A stretch of 64,000 bases of DNA from the NCBI RefSeq assembly GCF_034259325.1, contig NZ_JAXIVS010000012.1:124001-188000 (forward strand), written 5' to 3'. This document shows, in pieces, positions 4,714-43,941 of this stretch. Every line of letters begins with the position of its first letter. The stretch's first letter is position 1. The notes beneath the pieces were generated by a model. The model was given only the letters and a program-made list of their open reading frames with translations. It had not been told where the DNA came from and ran no database searches. Both the position numbers and the translations under genes were made by a program. The stretch is from Hyalangium ruber. GTDB taxonomy: Bacteria; Myxococcota; Myxococcia; Myxococcales; Myxococcaceae.

Positions 4714-6603
4714 TTGGCTTCCACGACACACTTCCAACTCACCCTGGGCGCCCAACCTCTCGCGGATGGGCGCAGCCACTTTCGAGTCTGGGCCCCTCGG
4801 CGCCGCACCGTAGACGTCTGCCTGCATGAGCCGGGAGGGCTGCGCTACCTGCCTCTCGAACGAACCGCGGGCGGTTACTTCGAGGGCACGCACCCCGTCC
4901 CCGCGGGAGCGCTCTACAAGTACCGGCTGGATGGGGGCGACACCTTCCCGGATCCCTGCTCGCGCTTCCAACCGGAGGGACCTCATGGGCCCTCGCGCGT
5001 CATCGATCCCGGGCGCTACGCCTGGGCGGACAAGGACTGGCGTGGCCTGTCCTCGATGAAGGGCCAGGTCTTCTACGAGCTGCACCTGGGCACCTTCACG
5101 CCGGAGGGGACCTACGCGGCCGCCGCGGCGAAGCTGCCCCTGCTCAAGGAGCTGGGCATCACCGTGCTGGAGCTGATGCCCCTGCACACCTTCCCCGGCC
5201 GCTACAACTGGGGCTACGACGGGACGACGCTCTTCGCCCCGTGCGCGGTGTACGGCGAGCCGGATGATCTGCGGCGCCTGGTGGACGCGGCCCACCGGCT
5301 GGGGCTCGGCATCATCCTGGACGTCGTCTACAACCACCTGGGCCCGGACGGGAACTACCTGGCCCAGTACTCCCAGGGCTACTTCAACCCGAAGTACCCC
5401 AACGAATGGGGCGACCCCACCAACTTCGATGATGGCGAGGCGGCGGGGCCCTCGCGGGACTTCTTCGCCCAGAACGCCTGTCTCTGGATCGCCGAGTACC
5501 ACTTCGACGGGCTGCGGCTGGACGCGACGCAGAGCCTCTACGACGCGTCGCCCACGAACATCGTGAAGGAGCTTGTGGAGAAGACCCGCGCGGCGGCCGG
5601 GCGCCGGAAGATCCTCCTCATCGCCGAGAACGAACCGCAAGACGTGCGCATGGTCACCCCGCCCGAGCGAGGCGGCAACGGAGCCGACGGGCTGTGGGTG
5701 GACGACTTCCACCACACGGCGCGGGTGGCGGCGGTGGGCCGCTCCGAGGCGTACCTGATGGACTACTGCGGCAGTGCGCAGGAGTTGCTGTCCTGCGCGC
5801 TGCGCAACTCGCTGTACCAAGGGCAGTATTACCAGTGGCAAAAGAAGCGCCGGGGCTCGCCGCTGCTGCGCACGCCGCCCGAGCAGGTCGTCTTCTACCT
5901 GCAGAACCACGATCAGCTCGCCAACATGCTCCGGGGCCAGCGGCTCCATCAGATTGCCGGGGCGGCCCGAGCGCGCGCGTTGACGACGCTGCTCCTGCTA
6001 CTGCCTCAGACGCCCATGCTCTTCATGGGGCAGGAGTTCTTCGCCTCCTCCCCCTTCCTCTACTTCGTGGACCACAAGTCGGAGCTGCAGAAGCTCGTCC
6101 AGAAGGGTCGCAACGACTTCCTTTGCCAGTTCCCGAGCGCCTGTCAGGCGCTCCAGCAGGAGGGCTACGAGGCGCCCATCGGGGAAGAGGCCTTCCGCGC
6201 CTCCAAGCTGAACTGGTCCGAGTGGGATGCGCATTCGGAAGCCCGGGCGCTGCACGCGGATCTGCTGCGGCTGCGCCGGGAGGATCCGGTGTTCGCGGCG
6301 CAGGAGCCGAGCAAGCTCGCTGGGGCGGTGCTCGGCCCGCACGCCCTGGTGCTGCGCTACTTCGGCAGCGGGCAGGGGGGCGACCGCCTGCTGCTCTTCA
6401 ACCTGGGCACGGGGTTGGACTTGGAGCCCTGCCCGGAACCCCTGCTGGCACCAGAGCCGGGAAAGATCTGGCGGCTCCTGCTGTCTTCAGAGCACTCCCG
6501 CTACGGCGGTATGGGCACACCCGCACTTCCCGGTGAGGGGCGGGTGCGCATTCCCGGACAGACAGCCCTCGTACTCACGAGCACCGAGGAGAAGACAGCG
6601 TGA
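4714..6603 (+). CDS. treZ: malto-oligosyltrehalose trehalohydrolase (GH13)
   Basis: Releases trehalose from the reducing end of maltooligosyl-trehalose in the TreY/TreZ route. The chosen start is the TTG at 4714, six bases after GGAGGGG; an upstream ATG at 4510 would add 68 residues of non-family sequence. The 629-aa product begins with the N-terminal beta-sandwich (FRVWAPRRRTVDV), followed by the TreZ hallmark YELHLGTFTPEGTY and a GH13 barrel with DVVYNHLGPDGNY, nucleophile Asp270 in DGLRLDATQ, acid/base Glu305 in IAENEPQDV and transition-state Asp400 in NHDQLAN. Length is normal for TreZ. It overlaps the next gene by 4 bases. No treY is in the window. Confidence 0.93.
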   Translation: MASTTHFQLTLGAQPLADGRSHFRVWAPRRRTVDVCLHEPGGLRYLPLERTAGGYFEGTHPVPAGALYKYRLDGGDTFPDPCSRFQPEGPHGPSRVIDPGRYAWADKDWRGLSSMKGQVFYELHLGTFTPEGTYAAAAAKLPLLKELGITVLELMPLHTFPGRYNWGYDGTTLFAPCAVYGEPDDLRRLVDAAHRLGLGIILDVVYNHLGPDGNYLAQYSQGYFNPKYPNEWGDPTNFDDGEAAGPSRDFFAQNACLWIAEYHFDGLRLDATQSLYDASPTNIVKELVEKTRAAAGRRKILLIAENEPQDVRMVTPPERGGNGADGLWVDDFHHTARVAAVGRSEAYLMDYCGSAQELLSCALRNSLYQGQYYQWQKKRRGSPLLRTPPEQVVFYLQNHDQLANMLRGQRLHQIAGAARARALTTLLLLLPQTPMLFMGQEFFASSPFLYFVDHKSELQKLVQKGRNDFLCQFPSACQALQQEGYEAPIGEEAFRASKLNWSEWDAHSEARALHADLLRLRREDPVFAAQEPSKLAGAVLGPHALVLRYFGSGQGGDRLLLFNLGTGLDLEPCPEPLLAPEPGKIWRLLLSSEHSRYGGMGTPALPGEGRVRIPGQTALVLTSTEEKTA

Positions 6604-8639
6604 CCTCAGTCGTGGATCCTTCCCCTACCCTGCCCCGCCTGGGCTTCGAGTGGCCTGGTGGCCCGGAGTTCTCCGAAGTCATCGGCCGGGAATGGCTGGT
6701 GACCAACGGGCGCGGGGGCTACGCCTCCGGCACCGTGGCCGGCTGCAACACCCGCCGCTACCACGGCCTCTTCATCCCGAGCCTTCCGAAGCGCGGGCGC
6801 ACCGTGCTGCTCGCCCGTCTGGTGGAAGAGGCCCGCGTGGCCGGCCAGACATACCTGCTGGGCGCCGAGGAGCACGCTGACGGCCAGAGCCACCAGGACG
6901 GCGTGGCGGTGCTGCGGAGCTTCTCCCTGGACGGGTTGATCCCCAGCTGGGAATACGAGCTGGGCCCCGCGCGGCTGCGCCGCAAGCTGATGATGGTGCA
7001 TGGGGAGAACACGCTCTTCGTGATGTGGGAGCACCTGTCGGGGCCGGAGGTCAGCCTGCGCCTGCGCCCCTTCCCCGTGGTGCGCCCGCATGATCTGCCC
7101 ATTCCCCAGGAGTCCCTCGAGCCCATCGTCCGAATCCAGGGCACGCGGCTGGAGATCCAGGCCTCGTCCGACGCGCCGCCAATGCGGATGCGCGTCCACT
7201 CGGCCTGCGCCGCGCCCTTCGTGGGCCTGAGCCAGACGTCGCAGGCGCAGCTCTACCGCACGGAGCGGGCGCGCGGGTACGACCACACCGAGATCCAGCA
7301 CAGCCCCGGCTACTTCGAGTGTACGGTGGGGCCCGAGCAGACCCTGGCGCTGGGCGTGACGACCGACGACTGGTGGCTGCTGGATCGGGATGTCGCGCAG
7401 ACCTTCGCGCTGGAGCGGGAGCGCGAGCGCAAGCTGCTCAACCGCGCGCCGGAGGAGGCGCACTGGGGAGTGCCGGCGCGGCTGGTGCTGGCGGCCGACC
7501 AGTTCATCATCGACCCGACGCGCCCCGCGGACGACGCCTGGGCGCGCTCCATCGGACAGGACGCGCGCAGCGTCATCGCCGGCTACCACTGGTTCACGGA
7601 CTGGGGCCGGGACACGATGATCTCCCACGAGGGCCTGGCGCTGTGTACCGGGCGCTACCGGGAGGCGGCGGCCATCCTGCGCACCTTCCAGCACTACGTG
7701 AAGAACGGGCTCATCCCCAACTACTTCCCGGACGGGGAGAACGAGGGCGTGTACCACACGGCCGACGCCACCATGTGGTTCTTCCACGCGGTGGACCGGT
7801 ACCTGGAGACGACGGGTGACGAGGAGCTGCTGCGGGACATGTTCCCCACGCTGGCGAGCATCGTGGAGCACCACCAGAAGGGCACACGCTTCAACATCGG
7901 CGTGGATCCGGCGGATGGGCTGCTGCGTCAGGGCCAGGAGGGCTACCAGCTCACCTGGATGGACGCCAAGGTGGACGGCTGGGTGGTGACGCCCCGGCGC
8001 GGCAAGGCGGTGGAGATCAACGCGCTGTGGTTCAACGCGCTGCGGCTGATGGCCACCTGGGCCGAGCGGCTGGGCAAGGATCCGAACCCGTACATGGGAG
8101 CCGCCGAGCGGGTGTACGGCAGCTTCAACAAGCGCTTCTGGAACCCAGCCACCCACTGCCTGTTCGACGTGGTGGATGGAGAGAACGGGCGAGACGATCC
8201 GGCCATCCGGCCCAACCAGGTCTTCGCCATCTCGCTGCGCTACCCGGTGCTGCGGCGGGAGCGGTGGGAGGCGGTGGTGGAGGTGGTGCGCCGGGATCTG
8301 CTGACGCCGGTGGGCCTGCGCAGCCTGGCGCCGGGGCAGCAGGACTACAAAGCCAACTATGATGGAGACCTGAGGGCGCGCGACGCGGCGTACCACCAGG
8401 GCACGGTGTGGGGCTGGCTGATCGGGCACTACATCGACGCGACGCTGAAGGTGAACCCGGACATCAAGGCGGCGCGCGCGCTGCTGCAGGGCCTGGAGCA
8501 CCACCTGGAGCACGCGGGCGTGGGGCAGATCAGCGAGATCTTCGACGCCACCGAGCCCTACCGGCCGCGCGGCTGCATCGCCCAGGCGTGGAGCGTGGCG
8601 GAGGCGCTGCGCGTCTTCCTGAAGACCCACGTCACCTGA
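6600..8639 (+). CDS. glycogen debranching enzyme, amylo-alpha-1,6-glucosidase type
   Basis: Removes alpha-1,6 branches of glycogen or limit dextrins; probably feeds linear glucans to the trehalose route of the preceding gene. The GTG start sits in GTGA, overlapping the treZ stop, so the pair is translationally coupled. The 679-aa protein has the N-terminal domain typical of archaeal/bacterial debranching enzymes (WLVTNGRGGYASGTVAGCNT, about 33-52) and the C-terminal (alpha/alpha)6 catalytic domain with WFTDWGRDTMISHEGLAL (Asp338 likely catalytic) and QVFAISLRYPVL. The length is typical. Specificity for glycogen over other glucans is inferred from family. Confidence 0.9.
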   Translation: MTSVVDPSPTLPRLGFEWPGGPEFSEVIGREWLVTNGRGGYASGTVAGCNTRRYHGLFIPSLPKRGRTVLLARLVEEARVAGQTYLLGAEEHADGQSHQDGVAVLRSFSLDGLIPSWEYELGPARLRRKLMMVHGENTLFVMWEHLSGPEVSLRLRPFPVVRPHDLPIPQESLEPIVRIQGTRLEIQASSDAPPMRMRVHSACAAPFVGLSQTSQAQLYRTERARGYDHTEIQHSPGYFECTVGPEQTLALGVTTDDWWLLDRDVAQTFALERERERKLLNRAPEEAHWGVPARLVLAADQFIIDPTRPADDAWARSIGQDARSVIAGYHWFTDWGRDTMISHEGLALCTGRYREAAAILRTFQHYVKNGLIPNYFPDGENEGVYHTADATMWFFHAVDRYLETTGDEELLRDMFPTLASIVEHHQKGTRFNIGVDPADGLLRQGQEGYQLTWMDAKVDGWVVTPRRGKAVEINALWFNALRLMATWAERLGKDPNPYMGAAERVYGSFNKRFWNPATHCLFDVVDGENGRDDPAIRPNQVFAISLRYPVLRRERWEAVVEVVRRDLLTPVGLRSLAPGQQDYKANYDGDLRARDAAYHQGTVWGWLIGHYIDATLKVNPDIKAARALLQGLEHHLEHAGVGQISEIFDATEPYRPRGCIAQAWSVAEALRVFLKTHVT

Positions 8640-8680
8640 GCCCCCCTCCCTGCGCTCGGCGCGGGGTTCCGGTAGACTTC

Positions 8681-8704
8681 GGGGACTCTCCCGCCGGAGT
8701 CCCC
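8681..8704 (+). promoter_or_regulatory. hairpin covering a ribosome-binding site
   Basis: An 8-bp stem (ggggactc / gagtcccc) ends 5 bases before the ATG at 8710. The only good Shine-Dalgarno match (GGAG, 8696-8699) lies in its 3' arm. It may damp translation of the next gene or act as a weak terminator for the debranching enzyme. Confidence 0.35.
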
Positions 8705-8709
8705 GCGCC

Positions 8710-9441
8710 ATGCAGCTGTCCTGTGAAGTCTGCCACTCCCCCTTGCGTGCGGAGGACGTGCGCCTGGACCTCGCGGTGGCCAAGTGCCACGCGTGCAACG
8801 CGGTCTATGACTTGTCCGGGCGCAAGGCGCGAGGGCTGAGCGCCCAGCGCCCGGAGAAGCTTCCACTGCGGCCCAAGGTCGCGCTCCCCTCGAACTTCCG
8901 GGTCGAAGAGGATGGCCCCACCACGCGGATTTCCTGGCGGTGGTTCAACCCCCTCACCCACCTCTTCCTGGCCTTCTTCTGCATCGCGTGGGACGGCTTC
9001 CTGGTGGTCTGGTACGGCATCGCGCTCAACATGGAGGACAAGCCGATCATCATGATCCTCTTCCCCATCGCGCACGTGGCCGTGGGCGTGGGGCTCACCT
9101 ACTCCACGCTGACGGGCTTCGTGAACCGCACCCGCATCGAGGTGAACCGCGACCAGCTCACCATCCGCCACGGCCCCCTGCCCTGGCGAGGCAACCAGGA
9201 TCTGCCGGGACGCCAGCTCACCCAGCTCTACGGGGAAGAGGTGGCCAGGACGAACAAGGGCTCCACGACGTACAGCTACGACCTGCTCGCGCTGGACCGT
9301 GAGGGCCGCAAGGTGAAGCTGCTCAGCGGCCTGACCGAGAAGGACCAGGTGCTCTACCTGGAGCAGACGCTGGAGCGAAAGCTGGGCATCGAGGACGCGG
9401 CGGTGGATGGCGAGCTCGCCCGACGCACCCACGCCGCCTGA
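8710..9441 (+). CDS. zinc-ribbon membrane protein, function unknown
   Basis: 243 residues. The N-terminus is a two-CxxC zinc ribbon (Cys5/Cys8 and Cys28/Cys31: CEVC and CHAC). A basic stretch follows, then two adjacent transmembrane segments at about residues 84-105 and 113-133. The C-terminal half is a soluble beta-rich region (RIEVNRDQLTIRHGPLPWRG) that resembles PH-like membrane-associated domains. Predicted topology is an inner-membrane hairpin with both ends in the cytoplasm. I cannot assign a function; high third-position GC and position in a collinear run support a real gene. Confidence 0.75.
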   Translation: MQLSCEVCHSPLRAEDVRLDLAVAKCHACNAVYDLSGRKARGLSAQRPEKLPLRPKVALPSNFRVEEDGPTTRISWRWFNPLTHLFLAFFCIAWDGFLVVWYGIALNMEDKPIIMILFPIAHVAVGVGLTYSTLTGFVNRTRIEVNRDQLTIRHGPLPWRGNQDLPGRQLTQLYGEEVARTNKGSTTYSYDLLALDREGRKVKLLSGLTEKDQVLYLEQTLERKLGIEDAAVDGELARRTHAA

Positions 9442-9491
9442 GGCGCACGCCGCGCTCGCCTCTGCCTACTGTATAGGTAGAGTGCGCCGCC

Positions 9492-9920
9492 ATGGCGAAG
9501 ACCCAGTACTGGCTGATCAAGAGCGAGCCCTCCGTCTATCCGTACTCCCAGCTCGAGAAGGATCGGAAGACGGAGTGGACGGGGGTGCGCAGCTTCGAGG
9601 CGCGCAACAACCTCCGGGCCATGAAGCCCGGAGACCTGTGCCTCTACTACCACTCGAACGTGGGCAAGGCCGTGGTGGGCGTGGCCCAGGTGCTCACCGC
9701 GCCGGGAGAGGACCCCACCGCGCCGGGAGAGGACTGGGCCGCGGTGAGCGTGGGGCCCGTGGTCGCCTTCCAGCAGCCCGTGGAGCTCGGGACGATCAAG
9801 AAGACCCCCGCGCTGAAGGACTTCCAGCTGCTCACCCGCAGCCGGCTCAGCGTGGCGTCCGTCACCGCCGAGCAATTCAAGCTCGTGCTCAAGATGGGGA
9901 AGACGGCGCTGCCGAAGTAG
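9492..9920 (+). CDS. EVE-domain protein
   Basis: 142 residues forming a single EVE domain: YWLIKSEPSVYPYSQLEKD at the start, W34-T-G-V-R-S-F-EARNNLRAMKPGD, and LYYHSNVGKAVVGVAQV. EVE folds belong to the PUA-like group and are thought to bind modified bases in DNA or RNA. A seven-residue internal duplication (TAPGEDP / TAPGEDW) comes from a 21-base tandem repeat at 9695-9734, in a loop where family members vary. The gene is followed tail-to-tail by the Spy-like gene at 6 bases. Confidence 0.9.
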   Translation: MAKTQYWLIKSEPSVYPYSQLEKDRKTEWTGVRSFEARNNLRAMKPGDLCLYYHSNVGKAVVGVAQVLTAPGEDPTAPGEDWAAVSVGPVVAFQQPVELGTIKKTPALKDFQLLTRSRLSVASVTAEQFKLVLKMGKTALPK

Positions 9921-9926
9921 CAGGCG

Positions 9927-10502
9927 CTACTTCTTCTCGCCGCGCGGGGGCGGCGGCGCCTCATCGGGCCCCTGGAAGTGCCGGATGTGGACCTCGCGCC
10001 GGACCTCGCCCAGCTCGGCCTCGAGCTTCTGCCAGTTGTCCGGGCCCAGCTGCTGCTTGATCTGCAGCATCAGCCCGATGCGGTTCCTGCGCACGGCCGT
10101 CTCCGCGCGCCCCACCGCCTCCACCTGCTGCATCACGGCGTTCTCGCTCGCGTTGGCCGAGCGCAGCAGCTTGTCCAGCTCGAGCTGGGCGCGCTTCAGA
10201 TCCGCCTCCAGGGTGATGAGCTGGTCGTTCGCCGCGAAGGTGAGATCCTGGATTCGCTGGTTGAGCTCCTTCGACAGCCCGAGCTTCTGCACCAGATGCG
10301 GAGGGATGCCATAGGCCGGTGGCGGCAGCGCCACCATCACGGGCGGTACGGGGGGCACGGGCGGCATCGGCGGCATCGGCGGAACCGGGGGGAGATGGCC
10401 CGAGTGGCGCTGGATGACGACGTCCTCACGCGGCTGGGCGGCGGCGGGGAGGGCGAACAGCGCCCCGGTGAGTCCGAGGGACAACATGGCTTTCAGGGTC
10501 AT
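9927..10502 (-). CDS. periplasmic Spy/CnrX-like protein of a sigma-factor operon
   Basis: 191 residues with a cleavable signal (LSLGLTGALFALPAAAQ), a Pro-rich linker of PPM/PPV repeats (about 37-55), then a long alpha-helical hairpin (about 72-165: LNQRIQDLTFAANDQLITLE) like Spy/CpxP/CnrX metal or stress sensors. The tail is charged and Pro-rich. The ATG overlaps the stop of the anti-sigma gene (ATGA), so it is the third gene of a coupled sigma / anti-sigma / periplasmic-protein operon. In Cupriavidus Cnr, a Spy-like sensor of this kind controls the anti-sigma factor. A sensor role here is inferred from that arrangement; a chaperone-like effector is also possible. Confidence 0.7.
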   Translation of the reverse strand: MTLKAMLSLGLTGALFALPAAAQPREDVVIQRHSGHLPPVPPMPPMPPVPPVPPVMVALPPPAYGIPPHLVQKLGLSKELNQRIQDLTFAANDQLITLEADLKRAQLELDKLLRSANASENAVMQQVEAVGRAETAVRRNRIGLMLQIKQQLGPDNWQKLEAELGEVRREVHIRHFQGPDEAPPPPRGEKK

Positions 10503-11041
10503 CGTGCGGGCTCCTGTGTGGGTGAAGCGTGAAGGGGGGCGATGGCCGTCCGGAAGGGGCGATCCTCCAGGGCGACGGTGTCTGGCGGGCGGACCCAGAG
10601 GGCGAGCGCTCCAAAGGGCGCGTAGGTCTCGTCCCGAACGCTCGGGTTGCGCCGCGTGTAGCTCTCGACCTCGTCGATCAGCAGGCCGATCGAGGCCGGC
10701 TCCACTTCGGAGACGAGCTCCGCCTGGGTGACCATCTCGGAGGCAGGTACCGGCTGCACTCGTGGAGGCATGACGAGCAGGGCCACGGCGGCGACCGCTC
10801 CCGTCACGGCGACGCCGGCGAGGGCACGGCGGCGGTGGTGTCGGCGCCGCACCTCGCCCAGCACGGCCTGGCGCGGGATGGGCGCCAGGGCGGGAGGGCT
10901 GGCCAGCCTCAGCTTCGAGGCGGAGGCATGCAGGCGTGCGAGCTCACGGCACCGCGGGCACTGGTCCAGGTGGGCCTGGAAGCCCACGGGACGCGGCAAC
11001 CCTTCGTCCACGATCGCCGCGGCGACATCGTGGCAGGTCAT
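10499..11041 (-). CDS. anti-sigma factor, zinc-finger (zf-HC2) membrane protein
   Basis: 180 residues. The ATG at 11041 overlaps the stop of the ECF sigma gene. The N-terminus has the ZAS-type zinc motif (MTCHDVAAAIVDEGL ... HLDQCPRCRELARLHA), which binds the sigma factor in the cytoplasm. A single transmembrane helix follows at about residues 83-100 (ALAGVAVTGAVAAVALLVM). The short periplasmic part (about 105-180) ends FRTAIAPLHASPTQEPAR. Its stop overlaps the ATG of the Spy-like gene. Expected role: holds the sigma factor inactive until a periplasmic signal. Confidence 0.88.
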   Translation of the reverse strand: MTCHDVAAAIVDEGLPRPVGFQAHLDQCPRCRELARLHASASKLRLASPPALAPIPRQAVLGEVRRRHHRRRALAGVAVTGAVAAVALLVMPPRVQPVPASEMVTQAELVSEVEPASIGLLIDEVESYTRRNPSVRDETYAPFGALALWVRPPDTVALEDRPFRTAIAPLHASPTQEPAR

Positions 11042-11580
11042 GGCATTTCTCCTTTCATCACCAGCGCATCGACAGCCTTGAGCTTCTGGAGCGCCCGGTG
11101 GAGGTGGACGCGAACGGTCCCCCGCCCGATGCCCATGGCCTCGGCGACGGCGTCGAGGTCGAGCCCCTCCAGGTAGCGGAGGGAGAAGGCAGCAGCCTGC
11201 TGCGGGGGGAGCTTCCGCAGTTCGCGCCCCAGGGCCCGCCAGCGCTCGGCCCCGGCGAAGGACTCCTCCGGCGAGGGCGGAGGCTCGGGGCCCAGGTCCA
11301 ACACCTCGCGCAACACATGCCACACCCGCCGGCGACGCAGCAGGCTCATGGCCCGGGACACGAGGATGCGCCGCAGCCAGGCAGGCCCCGCCTGGGGATC
11401 TCGCAGGGTGTGGCGCTTCTCGTAGGCATCCGCGAGAGAGGACTGGACGAGGTCCCTCGCCTCCTCCGGATCCCAGATGAGCCGCCGAGCGAGGCCCAGG
11501 AGCGCTGCCTGCTGGCCCTCGACGAGCGCGTCGAAGTCGAGCACGGCGCTAGCGCGTGTCCCGATTGACGTCTCGTTCAT
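11038..11580 (-). CDS. ECF-family RNA polymerase sigma factor
   Basis: 180 residues from the ATG at 11580; a TTG at 11598 with a better-spaced GGAGG is an alternative and would add six residues. Region 2 is visible as LLGLARRLIWDPEEARDLVQ (about 28-47) with AWLRRILVSRAMSLLRRRR as the basic region 2.4. Region 4 has ELRKLPPQQAAAFSLRYLEG and a helix-turn-helix GIGRGTVRVHLHRALQKLK. It is first of three genes linked by 4-base ATGA overlaps and probably autoregulates from the spacer shared with the divergent sugar-kinase gene. Confidence 0.92.
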   Translation of the reverse strand: MNETSIGTRASAVLDFDALVEGQQAALLGLARRLIWDPEEARDLVQSSLADAYEKRHTLRDPQAGPAWLRRILVSRAMSLLRRRRVWHVLREVLDLGPEPPPSPEESFAGAERWRALGRELRKLPPQQAAAFSLRYLEGLDLDAVAEAMGIGRGTVRVHLHRALQKLKAVDALVMKGEMP

Positions 11581-11664
11581 GGCGGCGGTTTCCCTCAACC
11601 CTTTCCTCCCGAGCTGCTTCTGGGAAATGAGGACGCAGGACTGCGAAAAACGGCATACACGCTC

Positions 11665-11703
11665 GTTTCAAAAGCGCCAAGCGGCTGAAACCTCTAGGGT
11701 TTC
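11665..11703. promoter_or_regulatory. GTTTC/GAAAC inverted repeats between divergent operons
   Basis: The spacer between the sigma-factor operon and the sugar kinase contains GTTTCA (11665), TGAAAC (11686) and GGGTTTC (11697). The latter two form the near palindrome gaaacctctagggtttc. GAAAC-like boxes are common in ECF -35 elements, but no -10 with correct spacing is evident. Operator or autoregulatory site is a guess. Confidence 0.3.
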
Positions 11704-11763
11704 CATCGGAATCCCAGGTGTACTGGGGTCCTCCGAGTGCGGAGAGGTCCGGAGGAGCACCCG

Positions 11764-37062: not shown

Positions 37063-37425
37063 TCAGCCGTAGGAGCGCTCCTTCTTCTCCTGCTCCTCCT
37101 TGCAGCGGATGCAGAGCGTGGTGACGGGGCGGGCCTCCAGGCGCTTGGGAGAGATGTCCTCCTCGCAGCGCTCGCAGATGCCGAACGAGCCGTCCTCGAT
37201 GCGCTGCAGCGCCTTCTCGATCTTCTGCAGGAGGAACTTCTCCCGATCCCGCAGACGGAAGACCATGGACTGGGCGTACTCGGAAGAGGCCTGATCGATC
37301 TCGTCCGGGAGGTCGTCAGTATCGAAACTGGACTCCTCCACCAGGGTCTTCTTGGCGCTCTCGAGCAGCGCGGTCTTGCTGTCCTCGAGCATCTTCTTGT
37401 ACCGCTTGAGATCTTTCTGGTTCAC
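37063..37425 (-). CDS. dksA: DksA/TraR-family zinc-finger protein
   Basis: 120 residues, GTG start with GGAG eight bases upstream. The coiled coil (about 1-75) carries the tip motif DEIDQAS, which fits D-x-x-D-x-A, the residues DksA uses at the RNA polymerase secondary channel. The zinc finger is a complete C4 set (ICERCEEDI ... LCIRCKEE). It therefore may work with (p)ppGpp made by the nearby RelA in controlling stringent promoters. The length (about 120) is at the short end of DksA proteins, so a close paralogue rather than canonical DksA cannot be excluded. Confidence 0.88.
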   Translation of the reverse strand: MNQKDLKRYKKMLEDSKTALLESAKKTLVEESSFDTDDLPDEIDQASSEYAQSMVFRLRDREKFLLQKIEKALQRIEDGSFGICERCEEDISPKRLEARPVTTLCIRCKEEQEKKERSYG

Positions 37426-37558
37426 GGCCTTCGCTCCGATGGGCGAGAAAGAAAACGGACCCCGTCCCCCTAAAAAAAAGGCCCGAAAGCTTTATTCACA
37501 TGGACCGTAGTGTCAAGGTGCGCATGCCCAAGGCTGAGTGGGAGAGAGGGGAAGTGTA

Positions 37559-38440
37559 ATGAGCGAAGGTACGAAATTCGACCGGGAGTTCCTGCGCTCG
37601 GCCCTCTCTCTGGCAGCCAGGAACGAAGTAGACCACTTCTTGTACATCTGTGACACGCCCATCGCACCGGAGGACCTGCGAGGTAGGCCGGCGCGCAAGA
37701 AAATCATCTACGCGGTGACACTGGACAAGATCGCCCAGGACTACATGGCCCGGCAGCTTCGGGCCCTGGTCATTCCCGCCTATGACTACTCGCGTACGGA
37801 GCGGGTCAAGGTAGCCCTCGTCTCGGCGCTCTCCCAGGGGGCGATCAAGGAGGGGGACCTGGTGCTGTGCATGACCGGGAAGGTTGGGCGAGCGCCGGAC
37901 ACGCTGATGCACATGCGCATCGGGGGTTCGCTGGACGACCGGGTCGCCATCGAGGGTGTAAAGCTGGGCGAGGAGTTCAACTCGCAGGTGGTGGACGCGC
38001 TCATCCAGCTGGCGCTGCAGATCGGCCAGGAGGGCTTCGAGGGTCACCCCATCGGGACGATCATGACGATCGGGGACCACACGAGCGTGCTGGAGAAGAG
38101 CCGGCAGATGACCATCAACCCGTTCCAGGGCATCTCCGAGGCGGAGCGGAACGTGTTGGACCCGAAGATCCGCGAGGCCATCAAGAACTTCTCGGTGCTG
38201 GACGGGGCGTTCGTCATCCGCGAGGACGGGGTGGTGCTGGCGGCGGGCCGCTACCTGTCCTCGGCGGACGAGGCGGTGAAGATTCCGCTGGGCCTGGGCG
38301 CGCGGCACGCGGCGGCGGCGGGCATCACCTCCTCCACGCACTGCATCGCGCTGGTGGTGAGTCAGACTTCGGGAGCGGTGCGGCTCTTCAAGGGCGGCAA
38401 CATCGTCCTGGAGCTGCACCAGACGGCGCGCCGGACCTGA
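37559..38440 (+). CDS. diadenylate cyclase (DisA_N domain, DacZ-like)
   Basis: Predicted to make c-di-AMP from ATP. 293 residues from the ATG at 37559 (GAGGGG upstream). The N-terminal half (about 1-170) is an alpha/beta domain resembling the pyruvate-kinase C-terminal fold (LRALVIPAYDYSRTERVKVAL; TMTIGDHTSV), as in archaeal DacZ-type cyclases. The C-terminal DAC domain has DGA (215-217, in LDGAFVIREDG) and the second motif region GARHAAAAG, where the usual RHR is RHA (249-251). The remaining core (SGAVRLFKGG) is conserved. Activity is likely but the missing second Arg deserves a test. Convergent with the coiled-coil gene by 1 base. Confidence 0.8.
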   Translation: MSEGTKFDREFLRSALSLAARNEVDHFLYICDTPIAPEDLRGRPARKKIIYAVTLDKIAQDYMARQLRALVIPAYDYSRTERVKVALVSALSQGAIKEGDLVLCMTGKVGRAPDTLMHMRIGGSLDDRVAIEGVKLGEEFNSQVVDALIQLALQIGQEGFEGHPIGTIMTIGDHTSVLEKSRQMTINPFQGISEAERNVLDPKIREAIKNFSVLDGAFVIREDGVVLAAGRYLSSADEAVKIPLGLGARHAAAAGITSSTHCIALVVSQTSGAVRLFKGGNIVLELHQTARRT

Positions 38441-38441
38441 G

Positions 38442-39005
38442 CTACTCCTCCTTCTCCCCTGCCCCGCGCTCCTCGCGGTAGATGTCCGCGAGCGCGTGCG
38501 CCCGCTCGATCTCATCGCGGGCAGCGTCCACGGCGAGCACCTTCTCGATGCGGTCCACGCGCTCGCGCATGGCGCCGGTGACGAGCCCACCGGCGACGAG
38601 CCGGGCCGAGGCGCTCTGGCGCTCGGTGCGCAGCTCCACGACGCGCCGGCCTACCTCGTTGGCGGCCTCCAGCAGCAACCGGGCATCCTCCTCGGCGCGC
38701 TCCAGGGCCTCTCGGGTGGACTTGAGCAGACTCTCGGTCTGCTCCTGGTCGCGGGCGAGCACGGACATGCTCTTCACGTCTCCCCGGGAGTCGGCCACCG
38801 AGAGGCGCTGGGCGATGTCCGCGAGCTGGCGCGTGTAGCGCTCCTTCGCGCGAGACAGCTCTCCCTTGAGGGCCAGCAGCGTGGCGGCGGACTTGCGTAC
38901 CTCGGCCGCCTGGCGCTCCAGGTCCTCGATGAGCTGATCGAAGGCCGCGAGCGGGTCCGCGGGCTTCTGCTTCTTGTCCTTCTTGCGAAAGAGGCCGAAC
39001 AGCAT
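38442..39005 (-). CDS. PspA-like coiled-coil protein
   Basis: 187 residues, almost entirely helical coiled coil, with a basic hydrophobic N-terminus (MLFGLFRKKDKK) that could bind membranes. It resembles the PspA/ESCRT-III-like fold in length and composition (QLIEDLERQAAEVRKSAATL; LLKSTREALERAEEDARLLL), but I see no diagnostic motif. It is the third gene of an operon with the VWA and MoxR-type genes, starting 15 bases after the VWA stop, which suggests a shared membrane or envelope stress function. Confidence 0.7.
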   Translation of the reverse strand: MLFGLFRKKDKKQKPADPLAAFDQLIEDLERQAAEVRKSAATLLALKGELSRAKERYTRQLADIAQRLSVADSRGDVKSMSVLARDQEQTESLLKSTREALERAEEDARLLLEAANEVGRRVVELRTERQSASARLVAGGLVTGAMRERVDRIEKVLAVDAARDEIERAHALADIYREERGAGEKEE

Positions 39006-39020
39006 GTCCAGGGCGAGAGC

Positions 39021-41318
39021 CTACCCGAACGGACGGCAGAGGAGGCGCACGCGCGCGAGGTTGTCCTGGATGGGCTTTCCGCCCACCGCCAGCGCCGCCA
39101 GGTAGCGCGGGGGCGTCATCTGGTAGACACCGAGCAGGTGCTGGAGCAGCGCCACGCTCTCGGTGGCCCGGCGGTCGGCGGGCGCCAGGGAGGCTGCCTC
39201 GGCCAGGGCATCCAGGATGTCCGCCACGCGCGCCGTCACGTCGGCCCCGGGAGCCTCACGCTGCGGCGCCGCCGGGGGCTGCTCCGGAAAGAGCGCATCG
39301 AAGGAGACCTCCACCGCCACGGTCGCCGTGGAGGCCGCGCGTTTGGCCGCCACGGCCTCGAGCGCCTCCAGGTGGGGAAAGAGCGCGTCGAGCATCTCCG
39401 GCGTCTCGTGGATGTCCGGGGGCAGCAGCGTGCGCCAGGGCGCGTCGAACTCGGTGCGGGCCCACTGGATCTCCTCGTCGGAGAGGTGGTGGTAGAAGGC
39501 GCGGCCGCCCTGGGAGCGCTGCTCCTGCACCAGGGCCTTGAGGTCCATGTTCTCCTCGCCGAGCGAGATGAAGCTCAGGGCGATGTTGAGCGAGTCCACC
39601 GGGGCGCGGGTGCGGCGGATGAGCTCCATGTCCACCCGGTCCTCACCATCGGTGATGAGCACCACGGTGGCGCGGGCGAGGTAGGGGTCCCTGCCCTGCG
39701 CCGCCCGGATGGAGTCGAAGGCCGCCATCAGCGCCAGGGTGATGTCCGTCTGCCCCTCGGCGGGCGAGTGGCGGAAGAGCTTTTCGATCTGCCGGGTAGC
39801 CTCGGAGGCTGTGTCCACCCGGGCCAGCTCCGTGGGCGAGTCGTTGAAGAAGGAGAAGTACAGCGGATCGAAGGGCTGATCCCTGCGGGCCTTGGCGCGC
39901 AGGTTGTTGAGCTCGGCGATGACGATGGCGTCGCGGAAGCGGGCACGGGCGCCGTGCATGGAGCCGGAGGCGTCACACACGTAGACGCGCACGGCGGTGC
40001 GCTTCATCTTCTTGGGCTTGGGAGGCGGCTCCTCCTCCATATAGGCGCGCACGAGCTGCCGGTTCGCGGCCATGTCGTAGACGAGGAGCCGAGGGTCGGT
40101 GACGACGAAGTCGTGAACCTCGTGGAGGCTGCCCGTCGTCTCGAAGTGCATCTTCTGCGTGGGGTACGGCACCCGCTTGGGGATGGGCCGCAGCGCCCGG
40201 GTGTCCACCTGGACGATCTCCTCGGAGAGCGAGTCCTCCACGTCGAAGTAGCGCGCGCAGCCGGCCGCCAGCTCGAAGGCGGCGAGCTGCTCGGGATCGA
40301 GCGAGAAGGCCAGGTCCGCCAGCAGATCGTCCGCGCGAGACTTCCGGCCGTCTTCCTCTTGGAGCCCCTCGTCCACCTCCCCGCCTTGCGTGCGGGGCGT
40401 CTCGCCGAACCAGCGCGCCATCTCCTGCTGCTCGGCCTTCTCCATCAGCGAGCGCATCCTGCCGGTGGCGGGCAGCATGGGCTCCAGGGCGGCGTGGGCC
40501 GCGGCGGCCAGTTGGGACTCTCCAGCCTCCACGGCGCGCTCGTAGAGCCCTCGGAGCGAGCAGTAGGCCTCCCCCGGGGAGCGCCGGGCGGTGCTGCGCA
40601 CCTGCTTCACCAGCTCATCCAACGAGCGTACGGGCGAGCTGGCGCGGGTGCGCTCACGCGCCTCGGCCACCTCGCGGCGCAGCACCACGCCCCGGTCACG
40701 ATCGTGGTCCGCGCCCAGGCGCAGCAGCATCTCGTGGGCGAGATCCAGGTCGCGGCGCTTCTGGAGCACGTCCTCCACGTTGTCCCGCGCCCGCTCGGCG
40801 AGGAACTCGGCGATGGCCATGCGAGCGCTGGCGGGCGCTCTCCCCTCCCAGACATGGCCGGTGCGCGGGAGGATCTCGAACGGCGGCGGCGCGGCGGCGG
40901 GGGCGGAGCCGAAGACATCCGCCACCTTCACCACGCGCGCCAGCTGCACGAAGGCGCGCTCCAGCGTCGTCCTGGCGCCCGGGGGCATCTCTCCCGCGCG
41001 GCGGGCCCGCTCCACCCGGCGCAAGCGCTCCTCGAACTCCTCGAGCGCCTCGCTGGCCCGCGCGCCCAGGGCCTCCGCGAGCTTTCCGGCCCTGCCCTTG
41101 CGCACCCCGAGGCTGCGCAGCAGGTGCGCGTCCGCCAGGGTGTGTACGCCCACCCGATCCAGCTCCCGGTCCAGCGCCGCGATCGTCGGGAACGCCAGGT
41201 CCACCTCGCCGGGCGCCATGAGCCCGAGCGCCCAGCCGACCACGCCGGACGGACGCTCGGCGGCCTGCTGGAGCGCGTCGAGCCGCTGGCGCAGCCCCGT
41301 GAGCTGGGGGGCGAGCAT
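39021..41318 (-). CDS. VWA-domain protein (ViaA-like)
   Basis: 765 residues from the ATG at 41318 (GGGAGGG upstream). The N-terminal two thirds are helical and carry ALGLMAPGEVDLAFPTIAAL and long charged helices (about 200-420). The von Willebrand A domain is at about 440-640 and keeps the MIDAS metal site: DASGSMHG with Asp449, a Thr in GQTDITLAL, and VVLITDGED. The C-terminal part (about 660-765) is another helical region. It overlaps or abuts the MoxR-type gene upstream, the same order as E. coli ravA-viaA. Expected role: substrate adaptor for the AAA+ partner. Confidence 0.85.
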   Translation of the reverse strand: MLAPQLTGLRQRLDALQQAAERPSGVVGWALGLMAPGEVDLAFPTIAALDRELDRVGVHTLADAHLLRSLGVRKGRAGKLAEALGARASEALEEFEERLRRVERARRAGEMPPGARTTLERAFVQLARVVKVADVFGSAPAAAPPPFEILPRTGHVWEGRAPASARMAIAEFLAERARDNVEDVLQKRRDLDLAHEMLLRLGADHDRDRGVVLRREVAEARERTRASSPVRSLDELVKQVRSTARRSPGEAYCSLRGLYERAVEAGESQLAAAAHAALEPMLPATGRMRSLMEKAEQQEMARWFGETPRTQGGEVDEGLQEEDGRKSRADDLLADLAFSLDPEQLAAFELAAGCARYFDVEDSLSEEIVQVDTRALRPIPKRVPYPTQKMHFETTGSLHEVHDFVVTDPRLLVYDMAANRQLVRAYMEEEPPPKPKKMKRTAVRVYVCDASGSMHGARARFRDAIVIAELNNLRAKARRDQPFDPLYFSFFNDSPTELARVDTASEATRQIEKLFRHSPAEGQTDITLALMAAFDSIRAAQGRDPYLARATVVLITDGEDRVDMELIRRTRAPVDSLNIALSFISLGEENMDLKALVQEQRSQGGRAFYHHLSDEEIQWARTEFDAPWRTLLPPDIHETPEMLDALFPHLEALEAVAAKRAASTATVAVEVSFDALFPEQPPAAPQREAPGADVTARVADILDALAEAASLAPADRRATESVALLQHLLGVYQMTPPRYLAALAVGGKPIQDNLARVRLLCRPFG

Positions 41319-41376
41319 GCTCAAGCCCTCCCGAGGGCCGCCTCACGCGGCACGCGAATGTGGCGGGACCCGGAGC

Positions 41377-43941
41377 TCACGAGGCCGACCGCAGCTCCAG
41401 CACGCGCTTGCTGAAGCGCCCGAAGTCCTCGTCGATGCCGCGCAGCTGCTGCGCGAGCTTGCGCGCGGCCTCGCCCAGCTCTCCCTGCATCGCTCCCAGC
41501 GTGCCCAGCACGCCCCGGAGCCGCACCAACTCTCCCTCCTTCAGCGCCAGCAGCGGGAAGCGGCTCTTTACCAGCCGCTCGAAGGCGCGCTCCGCCTCGG
41601 TGCGCCCCTTGAGCGCCTCCAGCTCCGGCAGCAGCGCGGTGAGCAACTGCGTGAGCCAGCTGCGCAGGTACTTGATGCGGGTGTGGGCGAAGGCCAGCTC
41701 GGCCTGGGCCACCGCCTGCCGGACGTTGTCCGAGAGGAATGAGGCCGCCGACGCCTGCCGCGCGAAGGCCAGCTGGCTGTCCAGGCCGAGCAGCGCGGCC
41801 AGCTCCCCATCGGGGGCCCGGACCGAGAAGGTGTTGCGATAGAACGCGTAGGCGTCACCGTTGACCACCGCCGAGGGCGCGGGCGGAGGGCTCGCCACGT
41901 CTCGCGACATCGAGCGGGCGTGCTCGATGAGGCGGTTCTCCATGGCCTCCCGGCACTCGTGGAGCACGGACTCGGGGGAAAGGCCCTCCTGCCGCAGGTT
42001 CTCCGCCACCGTCTGCACGGCCCGAGCGTACTGTTCGATGCGCTCGAAGGGCGTGGTGCTCAGCACCTGCCGGGCATAGGCCATGCCCAGCGGCTGCAAC
42101 AGCTCCTGCTTCAACCCGGGCTGCGAAGGATCCAGCGACTGCAGCGACTGCTCCAGCTGGGTCAGGCGCCGTGAGTCGGCGGCGAGCGCCTCGAAGGGGT
42201 CTCGCCGTGCGGGCCGGGGCGCCTGGAAGGCCGCGGCCGCGCGCCGGCGCAGCGAGGCGACCACGCGGCGGCGCACCGCCATGTCCGCCACCCGCAGCCG
42301 CTCCATGGCCGAGGGCGCACCCTCGGAGAGCAACCCCGACAGCGAGGAGACCTGGGAGATCTCCTCCTCCAGGTTGTCGGCCAGGCCCACCAGCCCTTCG
42401 ATCTTGAGCCCGTCCTCGAACTCCACGCCCTCTGCCGACAGGGCGATCATCTCGAGCATCTGCTCCAGCAGGCGCGCGGTGGCCTCGCACATGGGCGCCA
42501 GCTGGGAGCGCAGCTCAGGGACACTCCGGCACAGCTCCAGCACGTCCTTGAAGGCCGACAGCAGCTGGAGCCCGCCGCGTTCCTGGCCACCGACACCCGC
42601 GGGCGCCCCGGAGGCGTCCCCCTGCAGGGGAACCATGCCGCGCGCCAGCCGCTGCTCCACCGCCGTGACCAGGCCGCGCGCCGCCCCCAACAGGGGCGCC
42701 CGGTTGTCCTGGTGCCGAGGGCCAGGCACGAGCTTCACCAGCAACCGCTGCGCGGTGACGGAGGCCATGCCGGGCTGGAAGTTGCGGGACAGCGCCTCGG
42801 CGGCCCCCACATCCTCCGCCGCGTTCAGCGAGCCGGCCTCGCGCTCCACGCCGGAAACGAGCTCGTTGCGCACCTTGGCCAGCGCTTCATCGAAGGTCCG
42901 CTGCTCCAGCCGGACGATCTCCAGCTGGGCCCGCTCGCGCGGATCCACCGCCACCTTGAGGAGCGCCTCGGCCTCGGCCGCCGGAGGTCCACCGAGCAGG
43001 AAGAACCACCGCAGCGACTCCAGGTCGTCGATCGTCGCCTCGAGCTGGCGATCCGGGCGATGGTAGATCTGGTCGCGCACCACGGCGGCCTTGAGCGCCC
43101 ACATCGCCTTCACCACCGAGCGCTGGGAGAAGTACTTGGTAGGAACGTAGTCAGGCAGCTTGGCCACCTGGGCCGACAGCGAGCGCTCCAGCCCGTCCGC
43201 CAGCAACTCCACGCCCTCGAGGATCTGGCTGGAGACCTTCACCTTGGTGACGGACTCCTGGAGCAGATCGAGCTGCTGCAGGGTGAGCGCGGCGCGAAGA
43301 TCCGGCCGGGAGCCATGCATGAAGCGGTGGAGCATGGCGGCGCGGCTGGCGCGCCGGGCGAACGACTTGGGCACGAAGGCGATGAAGCTGAGCCGATCCG
43401 CGAAGGCCAGCAACAGCTCCGGCGAGCGCGCCAGCACCTCGGAGAGGTAGCGGTTGCTCGTCATGATGGCGCACTCGATCCGCCCGCTCGTCACCCGCCG
43501 TCCGTGCTTGAGCTCGCGCTCATGCAGGACGTTGAGGATGGAGCGCAGCAGCATGTCGCGCCCGTCGAACACCTCGTCCAGGAAGGCGTGGACGGCGCCC
43601 AGCATGCCGTCATCGGTGATGTACTCGGTGCGCCCCGTCTCGGTGAGCACCTTGAAGTCCACCGGGCCGATGAGGTCCGTCTGCACCGTGGACTCGGCGA
43701 TCTGCTTGGAGAAGAGCGACGGGCCGCCGGTCTTCTCATCGAGGATGCGCCCCAGCACGGAGCTGGCGATGGCGCTCTTGGCGGTGCCGGGCGGCCCCAC
43801 CACGAGCACGTGCTCCCGGCACAGCAGGGCCAGCTCGATCTGGGTGAAGAGCGTCTCGCGCTCGAGGTACGTGTCGCGCAGCTCTCCAAAGAAGCGTCGG
43901 AAGGCCTGCGCGGCCTGGGGATAGGTCGAGGGCTGGGTCAC
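41377..43941 (-). CDS. MoxR-family AAA+ ATPase with long helical extension (RavA-like)
   Basis: 854 residues, GTG start. The AAA+ module (about 15-310) has Walker A GPPGTAKS (49-56), an insertion typical of MoxR proteins (IAESTVQTDLIGPVDFKVL), Walker B with HAFLDEVFDGRDMLL, sensor 1 (CAIMTSNRYL) and an arginine finger region (LAFADRLSFIAFVPK). Beyond it are about 540 residues of helices with no catalytic motif; this is much longer than RavA (about 500 aa). It pairs with the VWA gene 58 bases downstream and the PspA-like gene. Probably a chaperone that remodels a membrane or redox complex. Confidence 0.88.
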   Translation of the reverse strand: MTQPSTYPQAAQAFRRFFGELRDTYLERETLFTQIELALLCREHVLVVGPPGTAKSAIASSVLGRILDEKTGGPSLFSKQIAESTVQTDLIGPVDFKVLTETGRTEYITDDGMLGAVHAFLDEVFDGRDMLLRSILNVLHERELKHGRRVTSGRIECAIMTSNRYLSEVLARSPELLLAFADRLSFIAFVPKSFARRASRAAMLHRFMHGSRPDLRAALTLQQLDLLQESVTKVKVSSQILEGVELLADGLERSLSAQVAKLPDYVPTKYFSQRSVVKAMWALKAAVVRDQIYHRPDRQLEATIDDLESLRWFFLLGGPPAAEAEALLKVAVDPRERAQLEIVRLEQRTFDEALAKVRNELVSGVEREAGSLNAAEDVGAAEALSRNFQPGMASVTAQRLLVKLVPGPRHQDNRAPLLGAARGLVTAVEQRLARGMVPLQGDASGAPAGVGGQERGGLQLLSAFKDVLELCRSVPELRSQLAPMCEATARLLEQMLEMIALSAEGVEFEDGLKIEGLVGLADNLEEEISQVSSLSGLLSEGAPSAMERLRVADMAVRRRVVASLRRRAAAAFQAPRPARRDPFEALAADSRRLTQLEQSLQSLDPSQPGLKQELLQPLGMAYARQVLSTTPFERIEQYARAVQTVAENLRQEGLSPESVLHECREAMENRLIEHARSMSRDVASPPPAPSAVVNGDAYAFYRNTFSVRAPDGELAALLGLDSQLAFARQASAASFLSDNVRQAVAQAELAFAHTRIKYLRSWLTQLLTALLPELEALKGRTEAERAFERLVKSRFPLLALKEGELVRLRGVLGTLGAMQGELGEAARKLAQQLRGIDEDFGRFSKRVLELRSAS

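Follow-up and report, generated by a model that had tools for sequence, protein, structure and literature searches.

A DacZ-like diadenylate cyclase gene in Hyalangium ruber and its divergent DksA-like neighbor

The dacZ-like gene and its predicted fold

The window, a stretch of 64,000 nucleotides from a Hyalangium ruber contig, carries on its forward strand, at positions 37559 to 38440, a dacZ-like gene for a protein of 293 residues, recognized from its open frame, from matches to Pfam DAC and DacZ_P and to NCBIfam NF041371, and from homologues in other genomes. The frame starts with ATG, with AGGGGA seen by eye just 5' of it, and an alternative version of 300 residues would start from a GTG 21 bases upstream. 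The original prediction had spoken of a proteobacterial-type genome, which has to be corrected: the host, with a genome of 10.8 Mb, belongs to the Myxococcota, near Hyalangium, Myxococcus, and Corallococcus, and the named records nearest to the protein are from Hyalangium (93%), followed by Myxococcus, Pyxidicoccus, Corallococcus, and Archangium, in a comparison that may omit the records most similar to the window.

Pfam DAC (PF02457) matched residues 156 to 281 (positions 38024 to 38401) with 72.7 bits against a cutoff of 27, and DacZ_P matched residues 10 to 122 with 27.4 bits, which is also its cutoff (27.4). DACZ_N gave 21.3 bits, under its cutoff of 24, and a subthreshold Pfam match to PUA (22.6 versus 24.8 bits) falls inside the DAC region, where we take it as chance. 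The best NCBIfam model was DacZ NF041371, haloarchaeal by name, with 160.1 bits and an E value of 6.4e-47 for a cutoff of 430, compared to at most 39.2 bits for the CdaM, CdaA, and CdaS models on the same protein. The CdaA model TIGR00159 missed its cutoff of 188.8 with 38.3 bits, and the DisA model NF010009 did not list the full-length protein at an E value of 0.01 and scored an 89-residue piece of it at 18.0 bits versus 201. In PADLOC, a diadenylate cyclase model gave the single match listed, a weak one (28.7 bits; E value of 2.6e-7). Since the cutoffs of both NF041371 and DACZ_N were missed, the protein is not haloarchaeal DacZ itself.

We obtained an AlphaFold model built on an alignment of 47 proteins, with a mean pLDDT of 79.2 and a pTM of 0.53. 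Blocks of pLDDT range from 89 to 94 over residues 11 to 70 and from 77 to 87 over residues 71 to 120, and values fall below 50 at the linker (residues 123 to 134) and to ∼61 to 64 over residues 231 to 250, the stretch containing R249 and H250, so that the model is a tentative guide to how the two domains are placed and to the detailed geometry around R249. The predicted N-terminal domain (residues 1 to 126; positions 37559 to 37936, forward strand) assumes the pyruvate kinase C-terminal fold, with 122 residues aligned to pyruvate kinase 6k0k_D (Z of 13.6 and rmsd of 3.5 in VIA-align, the comparison being taken within Foldseek's best 1000) and a Foldseek match to 5ws9_A (E value of 8.2e-5). The C-terminal DAC domain, which spans residues ∼130 to 289 in the structural matches (positions 37946 to 38425, forward strand), compares with DisA, CdaA, and DacM chains at Z values of 11.3 to 12.1 in VIA-align and has 8c4n_B as its best Foldseek match (E value of 4.0e-6). 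Pfam, NCBIfam, Foldseek, and VIA-align agree on the DacZ-like layout first proposed from the sequence, an N-terminal alpha/beta domain followed by a C-terminal DAC domain. The model thus supports a PK_C-like domain preceding a DAC domain, which is the layout of archaeal DacZ and DacY/CdaZ.

The closest likeness is to archaeal DacZ, exemplified by HVO_1660 of Haloferax volcanii, with which the protein shares the PK_C-like plus DAC layout, a similar length, and hydrophobic residues after DGA; the N-terminal fold of the H. volcanii protein is itself predicted to be PK_C-like (excerpts of PMC6741144 and PMC8646023), and three mostly hydrophobic residues following DGA have been described for DacZ. 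In both, the third residue of the RH-x motif is not fixed as Arg, and the DAC domain is ∼40 to 42% identical to those of two Haladaptatus DacZ proteins. Unlike archaeal DacZ, the window protein is bacterial and stays under the NF041371 and DACZ_N cutoffs. The resemblance to DacY/CdaZ of Methanocaldococcus jannaschii is by description only and concerns the PK_C-DAC layout, described jointly with that of DacZ in an excerpt of PMC6741144. With CdaA and DisA it has in common the DAC fold, the DGA motif, and the first Arg of RHR. It differs from CdaA in having an N-terminal alpha/beta domain in the model rather than membrane helices, and from DisA in having few residues after the DAC domain and hence no counterpart to the C-terminal part of DisA.

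The third residue of the RH-x motif

The DGA motif is intact at residues 215 to 217 (positions 38201 to 38209, forward strand), as had been stated from the sequence, and R249, H250, and A251, the equivalent of the RHR motif, are encoded at positions 38303 to 38311 on the same strand. The original prediction had read these three residues correctly and had singled out Ala251, where many cyclases have Arg, as peculiar; the residues stand, and the peculiarity does not. We aligned the window protein with 103 distinct Myxococcota proteins (121 homologous proteins minus identical ones, with 66 of the 103 from near relatives) and two Haladaptatus DacZ proteins. D215, G216, and R249 are invariant in all 106 sequences, and position 217 is Ala in 102, Ser in 3, and Gly in 1. 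Position 250 is His in 100 and Asn in 6. Position 251 is far more variable, with Ala in 86, Thr in 7, Ser in 7, His in 2, and Met, Arg, Asn, and Val in one sequence each. Ala occupies it in 64 of the 66 near-relative rows, and the 37 rows from other families have Ala in 21, Ser in 7, Thr in 5, and Met, Arg, Asn, or Val in one each. The two Haladaptatus proteins, which are plasmid borne and annotated as DacZ, read RHH.

We also scored an 89-residue piece of the protein with 10 of the 20 residues placed at position 251. The haloarchaeal DacZ model was neutral between Ala and Arg (91.1 bits each) and scored Met best (93.9 bits), whereas Arg was favored over Ala by 4.2 bits in the CdaM model, 4.5 in CdaA, 4.1 in CdaS, and 3.8 in DisA. 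These scores and the residue counts indicate that an Arg in third place marks CdaA, CdaM, CdaS, and DisA and not the DacZ-like class, in which it would be dispensable at this position. In this the window protein, with its Ala, differs from CdaA and DisA.

Loss of the third Arg could be taken to mean that the protein is a degenerate, inactive cyclase that persists as a regulator binding c-di-AMP or ATP, and both the preference of the CdaA, CdaM, CdaS, and DisA models for Arg and the finding that an RHR-to-AAA substitution abolished the activity of mycobacterial DisA (excerpt of PMC3328451) could be cited for it. That substitution altered all three residues and therefore says nothing specific about the third. 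In the window protein the third residue alone differs, R249 and D215 being present throughout the alignment; two archaeal DacZ proteins have His there, the haloarchaeal model favors Met, and H. volcanii DacZ, considered irrespective of its own residue at the equivalent of 251, produces c-di-AMP (excerpts of PMC6741144 and PMC8646023). The residue variation across the class speaks against a dead enzyme as the main account of A251, and we hold the degenerate-cyclase reading to be highly improbable. This disposes of a false lead: the RHA motif does not mark a cyclase as dead.

In known DACs, the motif to which position 251 belongs makes contact with the ligand (excerpts of PMC3328451 and PMC8573169), and six rows of one family, f11, also have Asn for H250. 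An active nucleotidyl cyclase in which the motif shifts substrate handling might yield another main product, a mixed or a linear dinucleotide. We judge this unlikely, as nothing in the data points to it and the trio after DGA is mostly hydrophobic, as in DacZ (of the 106 sequences, 65 have FVI and 26 have FII).

Departures from the motifs also occur elsewhere. Six homologues of f11, a family outside the class to which the window belongs, have RN for RH at positions 249 and 250 (L141 to L145 and L148), a larger change than the Ala of the window protein. The DGA motif is altered in four homologues, to DGS in L055 and L057 (Archangium) and in L142 and to DGG in L124. In family f6, three CdaA-like DACs (L095, L100, and L109) have GTRHL for GTRHR, so that the third Arg is lost there too; the genomes of these three are without a DacZ-like match.

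Spread, relatives, and candidate partners

A homologue match at E ≤ 0.001 was found in 165 of 195 Myxococcota genomes and, by our own count, a strong DacZ-like match (E ≤ 7.7e-52) in 155 of the 195, a figure that excludes 10 genomes with weak matches (E values of 1.7e-4 to 2.2e-7). In these 10 genomes the Pfam DAC matches scored 118 to 139 bits, compared to ∼70 to 82 bits for the DacZ-like ones listed. For such other Myxococcota DACs we use a label of our own, CdaA-like, based on HDGA and GTRHR/GTRHL motifs and on Pfam DAC scores that exceed those of the DacZ-like proteins. Among the strong matches listed, nearly all extend over almost the whole length of the protein, the exceptions being in genomes G024 and G182, and matching this wide among Myxococcota argues that the gene is not a chance open frame. 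Some Myxococcota genomes carry DacZ-like and CdaA-like DACs together, and 166 of 193 have a Pfam DAC match of any kind.

In the family of the window, the DacZ-like protein is the sole Pfam DAC match in 84 of 91 DAC-positive genomes (our own count; DACNV proteins, present in 33 genomes of that family, may hold DAC domains that score below listing). This also speaks against a degenerate cyclase, and it would make the gene a convenient handle on the role of c-di-AMP in Gram-negative bacteria whose life cycle is complex.

The enzyme type is already known from archaea and from some bacteria, myxobacteria included. The DAC tree of Braun et al. 2019 includes proteins of Myxococcus virescens, M. stipitatus, Stigmatella erecta, and S. 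aurantiaca, and its DacZ and DacY/CdaZ branch also contains bacterial proteins (excerpts of PMC6741144); reviews likewise attribute DAC genes to Deltaproteobacteria (excerpts of PMC10745434 and PMC7288161). Among the papers listed by a search of mostly open-access literature, none measures c-di-AMP in a myxobacterium, which fits the earlier remark that the nucleotide is little studied in these bacteria.

We built a tree of 32 hand-chosen DAC domains, of which 17 were DacZ-like (2 archaeal), 14 CdaA-like, and 1 DACNV. The CdaA-like domains, all 14 from Myxococcota, split from the rest at 98/95, placing the window protein on a branch distinct from theirs. The archaeal DacZ domains fall, tentatively, in one group with the myxobacterial DacZ-like ones at 84/86, on long branches, in poorly supported inner order, and with archaea represented by two Haladaptatus sequences. 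The very diverged DACNV domain from the same genome as the window joins the DacZ side with a branch length of 3.3. Local scores of the window DAC domain were 264 and 279 against the two Haladaptatus DacZ proteins (53 of 133 and 56 of 134 residues identical) and 73 to 100 against 4 CdaA-like domains out of the 14 from Myxococcota.

The original prediction had also called for a search for phosphodiesterases and receptors, and candidates for both were found in the same genome. A PgpH-type protein (7TM-7TMR_HD, 108.7 bits; 7TMR-HDED, 97.4 bits; HD, 52.3 bits) and a DHH-DHHA1 protein are, by family, candidate phosphodiesterases. Eleven TrkA_C matches point, likewise by family, to candidate receptors, one of which is an ion channel where TrkA_C and TrkA_N each occur twice. 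No ydaO-type c-di-AMP riboswitch (RF00379) was detected in this genome by a search whose control was positive in 2 of 14 genomes. PgpH is present in 173 of 193 Myxococcota genomes, in 157 of 166 DAC-positive ones versus 16 of 27 DAC-negative ones (Fisher P value of 4e-6, with 7 of the 27 assigned by absence among the positives), a co-occurrence that is weak because the genomes are related and some are incomplete. Two arrangements of neighboring genes were considered and set aside. A pgpH gene lies near dacZ in 1 of 92 loci (L138; 3 of the 92 are repeats), with two open frames between them that look ybeY- and fmt-like by eye, and we take this adjacency as chance. In H. volcanii, dacZ shares an operon with mscS2 (excerpt of PMC6741144), and a scan of eight proteins of the window brought up no mscS.

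We consider it very likely that the gene encodes a soluble PK_C-DAC diadenylate cyclase of the DacZ or DacY/CdaZ kind that makes c-di-AMP, with removal by PgpH and read-out by TrkA_C proteins. The motifs, their conservation, and the partner genes are observed directly and the fold is by prediction; activity, dimer, ligand, and regulation are inferred from other DACs. By this analogy, two DAC domains would come face to face with one ATP in each, D215 of DGA and R249 would touch the nucleotides, and c-di-AMP would be released. The pyruvate kinase-like N-terminal domain would probably serve in metabolite sensing or oligomerization. Breakdown of the product would fall to the PgpH-type HD phosphodiesterase, whose gene lies elsewhere in the genome, and TrkA_C (RCK_C) proteins, K+ channels for instance, would act as its readers.

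The same genome encodes a second DAC protein, of the DACNV type, which is very different from the dacZ-like one (locus L185, positions 8286 to 9926, reverse strand; near 1254354 of contig C1 of genome G000, with neighbors at L185 positions 9811 to 11712, forward, and 4991 to 7435, reverse). It scores 53.6 bits with Pfam DACNV (cutoff of 27) and 24.8 bits with DAC, under the cutoff of 27, and its motif reads RHR. It adjoins an OLD/GajA-like ATPase (PADLOC Old, 82.9 bits; GajA, 71.2 bits), and a UvrD helicase, matched best in PADLOC by GajB (110 bits), lies nearby, as does a PD-(D/E)XK protein. With DACNV present in just 34 of the 193 Myxococcota genomes, the locus may belong to a patchy, possibly defense-related island.

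The divergent DksA-like gene

Upstream of the dacZ-like gene and divergent from it lies a DksA-like gene (positions 37063 to 37425, reverse strand), assigned from Pfam DksA_N (53.5 bits), zf-dskA_traR (47.6 bits), and synteny; with the NCBIfam dksA model its protein scores 110.2 bits, slightly below the cutoff of 115.5. Further left are genes for an FHA protein, a Ser/Thr kinase, a second FHA protein, and a relA/spoT-type protein. The divergent pair recurs in 51 of 52 loci from close relatives, with gaps of 97 to 170 bases (exception, L084). Other families of the same order or class retain it in 20 of 21 loci, where the two genes are 116 to 392 bases apart (exception, L124). With the DksA-like protein of the window as query, tblastn (E value of 1e-4) found no match near dacZ in the 16 loci from outside the class, two of which extend only ∼2 kb upstream. 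The difference between 20 of 21 and 0 of 16 has a Fisher P value of 1e-9, uncorrected for kinship. Clustering of open frames in the distant neighborhoods was mostly spoilt by spurious frames in GC-rich DNA.

The intergenic stretch between the two genes (positions 37426 to 37558), delimited and compared through gap lengths and alignment, contains TGTCAA at positions 37511 to 37516, which reads TTGACA toward dksA. Of 71 distinct intergenic stretches, 55 have the same hexamer, and of the 20 among them that come from other families, 12 do. Single-base shuffles would give ∼1.6 of 71, and relatedness inflates the observed count. A scan for a full sigma-70 promoter between dksA and dacZ returned none.

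The locus thus holds a well-conserved diadenylate cyclase that is, by analogy with other DACs, very probably active, with an ordinary motif and a moderately interesting genomic partner. The pairing with dksA is the less expected point, and it suggests, without showing it, that c-di-AMP is tied to the stringent response. We tentatively propose, as a possibility we would not rate high, that in the class of Myxococcus the dacZ gene and a DksA-like regulator, divergent from one conserved region and often with a relA/spoT-type gene nearby, allow (p)ppGpp/DksA and c-di-AMP to be set jointly in response to starvation, osmotic state, or fruiting, and that PgpH would provide a second contact between the two. 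A link between the two messengers is not far-fetched, given that ppGpp inhibits PgpH in Listeria according to an excerpt of a review (PMC7288161); here it is a hypothesis. If the pairing does reflect joint control, two nucleotide messengers would be tied together where starvation drives multicellular development. Among the papers listed by the search of mostly open-access literature, none describes the dksA-dacZ pair.

Downstream of the dacZ-like gene, positions 38442 to 43941 carry three genes on the opposite strand, one whose product belongs to no Pfam family, one for a VWA protein, and one for a MoxR-type AAA protein. All three have matches beside dacZ in closer relatives, and none was found in the loci from other families. 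Among the records compared, one titled Comamonas sp. KCTC 72670 (L046; BNCN01000010.1) has the full myxobacterial gene order and an 88% identical protein, so that either the name of the record looks wrong or the assembly is mixed.
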